A DNA stretch of 33,232 nucleotides from a bacterium (lineage in GTDB: Bacteria > Electryoneota > RPQS01). The position numbers were made by a program, and so were the translations under genes. Location of the stretch: contig JAPKYT010000120.1 of NCBI GenBank assembly GCA_026394155.1, forward strand, positions 1 through 33,232, given 5' to 3'. This document shows positions 3,916 through 22,992 of this stretch, one piece after another; positions within the stretch are counted from its first letter, which is position 1; every line of letters starts with the position of its first letter. The notes under the pieces are model-generated. The model made no database searches, was not told the DNA's origin, and was given only the letters and a program-made list of their open reading frames with translations.

Positions 3916-3980
3916 TCCCCCCGCGTGCGGGGGGATGTCGCGCTGCTTTCCCCCCGTGGACGGGGGGAAAAAAGGGGGGT
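3916..3980. repeat. Two C6/G6 palindromic repeat units
   Basis: Unit 1 is 3916-3935, a 9-bp perfect stem TCCCCCCGC / GCGGGGGGA with loop GT. Unit 2 is 3947-3970, an 11-bp stem (TTTCCCCCCGT / ACGGGGGGAAA) with loop GG, followed by AAAGGGGGGT up to 3980. Read on the minus strand, unit 2 plus its tail matches the repeat flanking the DUF559 gene (C6, short spacer, then the C6/G6 palindrome). A damaged half copy (CCCACGGGGGGGAAAC) lies after mntP near 4597-4612, so mntP is bracketed by this family. Confidence 0.75.
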
Positions 3981-12476: not shown

Positions 12477-12496
12477 TCCCCCCGCTTGCGGGGGGA
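12477..12496. repeat. C6/G6 palindromic repeat unit
   Basis: TCCCCCCGC / GCGGGGGGA, a 9-bp perfect stem with loop TT, located 13 bp after the lpd stop. Same family as 3916, 3947, 22511, 22922 and 22959. It could act as a weak terminator for lpd. Confidence 0.7.
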
Positions 12497-12535
12497 CAAA
12501 AGGGACTATCTTGAAATAGTGGAGGAGTTCGGAAC

Positions 12536-12706: not shown

Positions 12707-12738
12707 GCAAAGGGCTCAGGATTTCCTGAGCCCTTTGC
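12707..12738. terminator. Strong bidirectional hairpin terminator, downstream of lpd
   Basis: GCAAAGGGCTCAGGA / TCCTGAGCCCTTTGC, a 15-bp perfect stem with a 2-base TT centre. A/T runs are part of the stem ends. The inner 13 bases of each arm are identical to the terminator at 22476-22503. Confidence 0.6.
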
Positions 12739-22475: not shown

Positions 22476-22503
22476 AAAGGGCTCAGGAAATCCTGAGCCC
22501 TTT
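22476..22503. terminator. Bidirectional terminator between carboxyltransferase and DUF559 gene
   Basis: AAAGGGCTCAGGA / TCCTGAGCCCTTT, a 13-bp perfect stem with loop AA. It serves the plus-strand carboxyltransferase (37 bp after the stop) and sits 2 bp beyond the minus-strand DUF559 stop. Arms are identical to those of the terminator at 12707-12738. Confidence 0.75.
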
Positions 22504-22504
22504 C

Positions 22505-22894
22505 TCACTGTCCCTCCGCTTCAGCGGGGGGATTAAGGGGGGTAACGACGCACAGTATTTGTCTGATCACACTGGCCATGTTCTCCCTCACCTCGCGGTT
22601 GGTGAAACGGATGATCTTGAATCCTGCCGATTCAAGGCAACGCGTTCGCTCACTATCATGCGCGATCTGCTCTGGGTCGGCGTGTGTGTCGCCGTCAATC
22701 TCAACGACCAACCCGCATTCCGGAGCAAGGAAATCCACGATGAATGGTCCAATCGGATGTTGTCTGCGGAAGACAACACCCGTTTGGCCGTTCCGAAGTG
22801 TCCGCCAAAGAATCCGTTCGGCGTTCGTCGGTGTTCGCCGCATAGCCCGAGCTCGTTGCCAGTTCTGGCGTGGCACCTTCTCCCAACGCGGCAT
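22505..22894 (-). CDS. DUF559 / Vsr-like endonuclease domain protein
   Basis: 129 residues. The whole protein is one DUF559 domain, a PD-(D/E)XK-type (very-short-patch-repair-like) nuclease fold. The family landmarks are all present: ARAMRRTPTNAERILWRTLRN, then FRRQHPIGPFIVDFLAPE with the catalytic Asp, VVEIDGDTHAD with Glu, Asp and His, the second conserved D-x-x-R (HDSERTRCLESAGF) and IIRFTNREV. AGGAGG at 22904-22909 (read on the minus strand) lies 9 bases before the ATG. The last 13 residues (VTPLNPPAEAEGQ) lie outside the domain and are encoded entirely by a C6/G6 palindromic repeat. Another copy of the repeat, inverted, starts directly upstream of the ribosome site. The substrate is unknown; a role in moving the repeat is a hypothesis only. 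Confidence 0.88.
   Translation of the reverse strand: MPRWEKVPRQNWQRARAMRRTPTNAERILWRTLRNGQTGVVFRRQHPIGPFIVDFLAPECGLVVEIDGDTHADPEQIAHDSERTRCLESAGFKIIRFTNREVRENMASVIRQILCVVTPLNPPAEAEGQ
22506..22543 (-). repeat. C6/G6 palindromic repeat, left flank of the DUF559 gene
   Basis: Stem TCCCTCCGCT / AGCGGGGGGA at 22511-22532 (one T-G pair), loop TC, then TTAAGGGGGGT. On the minus strand this reads C6-TTA-A followed by the palindrome, and it overlaps the 3' end of the nuclease reading frame. Confidence 0.75.
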
Positions 22895-22910
22895 GTTATC
22901 TCGCCTCCTA

Positions 22911-22950
22911 CCCCCCTTTGATCCCCCCGCTGAAGCGGGGGGAGACTTGT
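22911..22950 (+). repeat. C6/G6 palindromic repeat, right flank of the DUF559 gene
   Basis: C6-TTTGA (22911-22921) followed by a 10-bp perfect stem TCCCCCCGCT / AGCGGGGGGA (22922-22943) with loop GA, then GACTTGT. It is the inverted counterpart of 22506-22543. Confidence 0.8.
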
Positions 22951-22958
22951 TCGGGTCC

Positions 22959-22992
22959 TTCCTCCACTTCAGTGGGGGAAGTTAGAAGGGGG
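22959..22992 (-). repeat. Third C6/G6-type repeat, degenerate, downstream of asnA
   Basis: Stem TTCCTCCACT / AGTGGGGGAA (22959-22980, one T-G pair), loop TC, followed by GTTAGAAGGGGG. On the minus strand it has the same layout (C5, spacer, palindrome) and therefore faces the copy at 22911. Confidence 0.65.

Follow-up and report, generated by a model that had tools for sequence, protein, structure and literature searches.

A DUF559 nuclease gene between inverted BoxC-like modules: the probable autonomous member of a mobile family of repeats

How a small nuclease gene came to be enclosed between two inverted copies of a C6/G6 palindromic repeat, and whether gene and repeat move together, are the questions raised by a 33,232-nucleotide contig from a bacterium of the Electryoneota (lineage RPQS01; GenBank assembly GCA_026394155.1, contig JAPKYT010000120.1), the whole of which is termed the window below. 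A preliminary description of the window had compared this gene, a member of the DUF559 family, and its repeats to the RAYT transposases with their REP repeats, and had proposed a nuclease-repeat mobile system. The proposal is supported by inverted modules beside DUF559 genes elsewhere, by occupied and empty sites, and by the observation that RAYTs are not the partners of these modules. The repeats probably make up a mobile REPIN-like family that is partnered by a Vsr-like nuclease and not by a transposase, with the cassette as its autonomous form.

A profile search assigned the open reading frame of the gene to DUF559 (Pfam, E = 1.3e-31). The longest inverted repeat of the whole window, at 22511-22551 and 22903-22943 (41 nt, 83%), spans this gene, as had been described, and the finer points of that description were also borne out. 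On the right, CCTCCT directly adjoins the module, with a C-run starting at 22911; on the left, the module codes for the protein C-terminus TPLNPPAEAEGQ, the stop codon lying just outside it; a third copy stands beside the cassette, while repeat-only copies occur as a full module, as a hairpin alone and as a hairpin with a degenerate foot (Table 1). The module is built as TCCCTCCGCTTCAGCGGGGGGA-TTAA-GGGGGGT, a hairpin and a separate G-run joined by about 4-5 nt of spacer, and in Watson-Crick hairpin folding both cassette hairpins fold better than any of 200 shuffled sequences. The cassette contains DUF559 as its sole gene, with no DDE, HUH or serine transposase inside.

The module is abundant in the window genome (G000). 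The pattern CCCCC-N(4-14)-GGGGG-N(3-8)-GGGGG gave 386 matches genome-wide, overlapping ones being counted more than once, against 4 for the reversed pattern. A stricter detector, run over a 657-kb sample picked partly for containing modules and into which the two cassette contigs were put deliberately, returned 108 modules, compared with 4 when that DNA was read backwards. Stem bases beside the C-run covary (G-C 30, T-A 18, A-T 11); these paired changes on both sides of the stem indicate, therefore, that the hairpin is maintained. Within the 657 kb, 12 of 14 outward neighbour pairs are spaced 7-35 nt, forming doublets of the kind made by the right and third modules in the window, and solitary modules thereby pair head to head like REPINs. 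Only three inward-facing pairs have a spacing of 60-1500 bp. One, of 95 bp, holds no open reading frame, and the other two, both of exactly 370 bp, are the DUF559 cassettes of the window and of mnmE on contig C82 (L096). A RAYT-like gene was also seen about 600 bp from the mnmE end (L096, 3556-4092 and 2959-3687); it adjoins different repeats of its own, one frame of which reads GHSRLCPYG repeatedly.

The association of gene and module extends well beyond this genome. In a survey of 99 relatives, 46 had a DUF559 match and 31 a strong one (E <= 1e-15); 26 of these 31 are repeat-rich, compared with 9 of the 68 others (Fisher p = 1.2e-11), and the co-occurrence is retained inside the phylum of the window (p = 4e-5) and in the other phyla alone (p = 8e-5). 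At the level of loci, 129 DUF559 genes were compiled, comprising 80 named ones and the remainder from the survey, which are not phylogenetically independent (about ten, for example, are Sphingobacteriaceae HisF fusions). The named relatives were found with search patterns from an alignment having one row hand-altered to sharpen them, which steers which relatives are found, and tblastn with the window protein in its unaltered form confirmed their matches; annotated records supplied the Deinococcus, Neisseria gonorrhoeae and E. coli loci. Among the named hosts are Sphingomonas, Microvirga, Pedobacter, Maribacter, Microcystis, Chloroflexi, Planctomycetota, Armatimonadetes, Nitrospirae and Omnitrophota. 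In the 250 bp flanking either side of the 129 genes, modules reach a density of 3.2-3.3 per kb; past 500 bp the figure is about 0.1 per kb, a difference of about 30-fold. A module lies within 300 bp of the gene in 98 of the 129 loci, mostly as inverted pairs (39 feet-inward as in the window, 9 feet-outward and 10 facing the same way). Independently of how a module is defined, an inverted repeat of at least 12 nt spans the gene at 36 of 74 named loci, as against 1 of 62 control windows 1.6 kb off. RAYT genes of the same genomes, taken as a control, have a module within 300 bp in 1 of 30 cases, and on this ground were rejected as drivers of the module.

The DUF559 gene of N. gonorrhoeae (L237) has modules of the type CCCTCTCCC..GGGAGAGGG on each side in the same orientation, and three related cassettes of one genome (L082, L093 and L094 of G039) differ in their hairpin tips (GAAGCTTC, TAAGAA and GAAGTTTC), the remaining DNA being about 86% identical.

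These distributions bear on a different explanation, in which the modules spread by replication slippage, template switching or host recombination, and DUF559 is a passenger captured between copies and moved by inter-repeat recombination. Such a course is in keeping with the roughly 100-fold excess of modules over DUF559 genes in G000 and with the existence of repeat-rich genomes in which no DUF559 was detected. However, the gene-sized inward pairs sampled hold no gene other than DUF559, RAYTs, although equally small and mobile, have not been captured, and the gene-module link spans many phyla. Passive capture is considered unlikely.

The preliminary description had looked to sites with and without the cassette, and these exist at mnmE, LeuS and the Deinococcus hpa and paa loci. 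The mnmE gene has no insert in G006, G011 and G015, a single in-frame module, about 12 codons long, in G003 and G009, and module-DUF559-module in frame in G000 and G001, where the 34-nt ends match at 32/34 and 34/34 positions (94-100%). Among LeuS of Bacteroidota, the cassette occupies one site in L246 and L281, whose second site is empty; L268, L287 and L290 display the reverse, and L279 has cassettes at both; the complete cassette-bearing proteins of this group measure 1100-1290 aa. In Deinococcus, four species have the cassette in the hpa operon, at three positions in all and truncated in D. wulumuqiensis, and the operon is free of it in D. radiodurans, D. ficus and D. deserti, while the paaD-paaZ gap is occupied in D. 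psychrotolerans and free in Deinococcus QL22. Sphingomonas has the cassette at the sufB-sufC and yebC-ruvC junctions and also ahead of dnaG. The gene is thus not confined to a fixed syntenic place, its site differing among relatives. About a third of the DUF559 genes (43 of 129) lie inside a longer open frame, a few perhaps by chance, and clear host proteins are LeuS, MnmE, UvrC, MetH, MurD, DNA methyltransferases and HisF, in addition to a set of Hint inteins; MnmE was confirmed by profile and the others were named by sequence reading. DUF559 and its modules are very probably a mobile unit. No empty-site comparison is available for the window locus because its AsnA neighbours are not syntenic in the relatives compared. 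The E. coli ycjD locus was rejected as a clean empty site: strains devoid of ycjD carry the eef efflux operon in its place (PMC12817139), leaving no simple junction.

Other features of these loci were recorded. Eight LeuS genes of Bacteroidota (L279, L246, L281, L287, L268, L290, L295 and L311) bear one or two in-frame DUF559 cassettes at two fixed sites. In the mnmE of G002 (L131), the GTPase domain includes modules translated in tandem, as PPSLTGGTKGG repeats, apart from the module of the N-terminal loop. At three Deinococcus loci (L239, 2890-3360; L328, 2400-2880; L337) the inverted repeat runs past the modules into site-specific sequence, e.g. ATTCGCTTTG...CAAAGCGAAT, as though flanking DNA had been copied inverted. 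In L240-L243, L257, L282 and L028, a gene for a DNA methyltransferase has DUF559 within its Hint intein, and in some of them C/G modules lie inside the intein too.

A free-standing homing endonuclease directed at conserved positions of host genes (LeuS, MnmE, methyltransferases), with the repeats as mere ends of the homing segment, would fit the identical LeuS sites of several genomes, the fold common to EDxHD homing endonucleases and the presence of DUF559 in Hint inteins (PMC9403480). This is quite improbable, as the cassettes occupy many unrelated sites, some of them intergenic such as that of the window, display BoxC-type ends despite the differing sites, and are accompanied by plentiful solitary modules. 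No Hint splicing domain surrounds the nuclease of the window or those of the MnmE and LeuS insertions.

The modules of the window genome present the architecture of BoxC, with a C-rich arm, a loop, a G-rich arm, a short loop and a third G-tract. BoxC, PIT elements and the TM intrastrand-triplex motif are one and the same (Holder et al. 2015, PMC4666352). According to the same report, E. coli MG1655 has 23 copies of the motif, with TTA or CCG as the second loop and A+B inverted pairs in five cases; the motif occurs in more than 260 genomes, is abundant in Microcystis and Neisseria, and was never found surrounded by mobility-providing activities. Microcystis and Neisseria also carry DUF559. In E. 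coli K-12, ycjD is followed downstream by a copy whose loop, TTA, is of type A (CCCCTCGCCCCTCTGGGGAGAGGGTTAGGGTGAGGGG), and the 3' end of ycjD itself runs into a degenerate module copy. The C6/G6 modules of the window lineage and E. coli BoxC may well constitute one family, given that they share the architecture, the arrangement in doublets and the tie to DUF559. A literature search, with subscription papers outside its reach, revealed no paper joining DUF559 with mobile inverted repeats. That DUF559 is a housekeeping Vsr-like repair enzyme and the hairpins are transcription terminators or mRNA-stabilising ends is very improbable, since, although the DUF559-bearing VsrA of Caulobacter is functionally tied to a cytosine methyltransferase (PMC12907096) and ycjD is found at sapF-fabI in 3363/5426 E. 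coli genomes, the gene is inserted in frame in LeuS, MnmE and UvrC, its site varies among relatives, a third G-tract is no part of a terminator, and PIT elements displayed no terminator activity (PMC4666352).

In an alignment of 28 relatives including YcjD, residues E26, E65, D67, H71 and D80 of the enzyme are invariant and D54 is nearly so. A profile search against the PDB, using an alignment in which one row had Q typed in place of a stop codon, retrieved 3hrl (E = 4e-32), identified by fold search as NGO0050 of N. gonorrhoeae, and I-Bth0305I (PDB code 3r3p; E = 3e-6). The predicted structure (predicted local distance difference test score, pLDDT, of 85.6) matches 3hrl, I-Bth0305I and Vsr (1cw0, 1vsr); it was modelled from an alignment separate from both hand-edited ones, with three annotated-record rows left out. 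The predicted fold is that of an EDxHD/Vsr-type nuclease with conserved active-site residues, and there is reasonable ground to believe that this nuclease acts on the module. No cytosine methyltransferase gene lies beside the window DUF559 gene. A reading as a defence system was set aside, PADLOC having given weak matches only.

Several observations weigh against a mobile partnership of nuclease and repeat. By the detector used, 31 of the 129 DUF559 loci have no module, and repeat-rich genomes with no detected DUF559 exist (G018, G023, G035, G003, G012, G021 and others). Several of these genomes are incomplete assemblies, whereas some of the nine repeat-rich genomes without a strong match are more than 90% complete; relics or losses of the gene may be involved. 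Cassette polarity varies between clades, no target-site duplication is evident at mnmE or in Deinococcus, where the empty sites have diverged too far for a sure reading, and DUF559 homologues can have other roles, as in Caulobacter VsrA. The tie between DUF559 and the repeat that had been expected across related genomes is therefore strong but not absolute.

In the mechanism proposed for the REPIN-like family, the unit would be one DUF559 gene between two inverted BoxC-like modules, each a hairpin with a third G-tract, and the solitary modules and head-to-head doublets would derive from it as non-autonomous forms, in the way that REPINs relate to RAYTs. The nuclease may bind the module when this is extruded or single-stranded and may nick or cut at the module or at a target, upon which host repair, using the palindromes for template switching or break-induced copying, would copy a module, a doublet or the cassette elsewhere. 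Such a process would need no transposase and would probably leave no target duplication, and stop-free, in-frame ends would allow the cassette to survive inside coding genes. Palindrome-driven template switching would also account for the compensated loops and the inverted flanking copies at some Deinococcus sites.

Attention was drawn to BoxC/PIT repeats in the 1990s, and the way in which they spread has so far been unexplained. DUF559/YcjD is the first good candidate for the spreader of these orphan repeats, and as a partner it makes the question of BoxC spread directly testable in E. coli. If the candidate is correct, a large DUF family gains a function, and a repair-type nuclease can drive a repeat-spreading system without a transposase. 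The in-frame insertions in LeuS, MnmE and UvrC represent one route by which essential proteins acquire extra domains. We hold in even balance the broader proposal of a distinct class of mobile element, with a single Vsr-like nuclease and triplex-forming hairpin ends, relying on host repair and not on a transposase, found in frame in essential proteins, and whose ends have spread as BoxC through much of the bacterial domain.

Within the window, the neighbours of the cassette are carboxyltransferase and AsnA-like synthetase genes, named by sequence reading. A perfect inverted-repeat element, AAAGGGCTCAGGATTTCCTGAGCCCTTT, is present in two copies (12709-12736 and 22476-22503), which are likely terminators.

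Table 1. Positions of the DUF559 cassette and of related modules in the window
Feature	Position	Strand	Description
DUF559 nuclease gene	22505-22894	-	YcjD-like, EDxHD/Vsr fold (predicted); 129 aa
Left module	22511-22543	+	Hairpin 22511-22532, spacer TTAA, G-run 22537-22542; codes for C-terminus of DUF559 protein
Ribosome-binding site AGGAGG	22904-22909	-	Directly adjoins right module
Right module, inverted	22910-22943	-	Hairpin apex GCTTCAGC as in left module, spacer, G-run adjoining ribosome site
Third module	22959-22992	+	Head-to-head doublet with right module, gap of 15 nt
Solitary module	3947-3980	+	34 nt identical to left end of mnmE-DUF559 cassette, contig C82 (L096)
Solitary hairpin	3917-3934	+	No foot of its own; 15 nt before module at 3947
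Solitary hairpin with degenerate foot	12478-12504	+	Hairpin part 12478-12495

The enzyme shares its fold with the very-short-patch repair endonuclease Vsr (1cw0, 1vsr), although the window gene has no adjoining cytosine methyltransferase and is mobile and associated with repeats. Rickettsia palindromic elements likewise comprise palindromic repeats inserted in frame inside protein genes but, unlike the window cassette, encode no nuclease. The EDxHD homing endonuclease I-Bth0305I resembles the window protein in fold, in catalytic motif and in being a nuclease-only mobile gene. In contrast, additional DNA-binding regions and a long target characterise I-Bth0305I (PMC3943268), whereas the window DUF559 consists of the catalytic core only and is accompanied by inverted repeats and many insertion sites. 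The REPIN-RAYT system presents a palindrome with an asymmetric foot, singlets, head-to-head doublets and one enzyme gene flanked by repeats (Bertels and Rainey 2011, PMC3116915), and the palindrome, foot and inverted doublets are all found here; the flanked enzyme, however, is a PD-(D/E)XK/EDxHD nuclease and not an HUH Y1 tyrosine transposase, and the foot is not of the GTAG type. With BoxC/PIT/TM elements the modules share the C-rich hairpin with a third G-tract, variable loops, many copies and inverted pairs, and differ in the spacer (TTAA/TTTGA in the window against TTA or CCG); the published description of those elements places no mobility gene near them and has them lying exclusively between genes in E. 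coli, while the modules described here are linked to DUF559 and often lie in frame.
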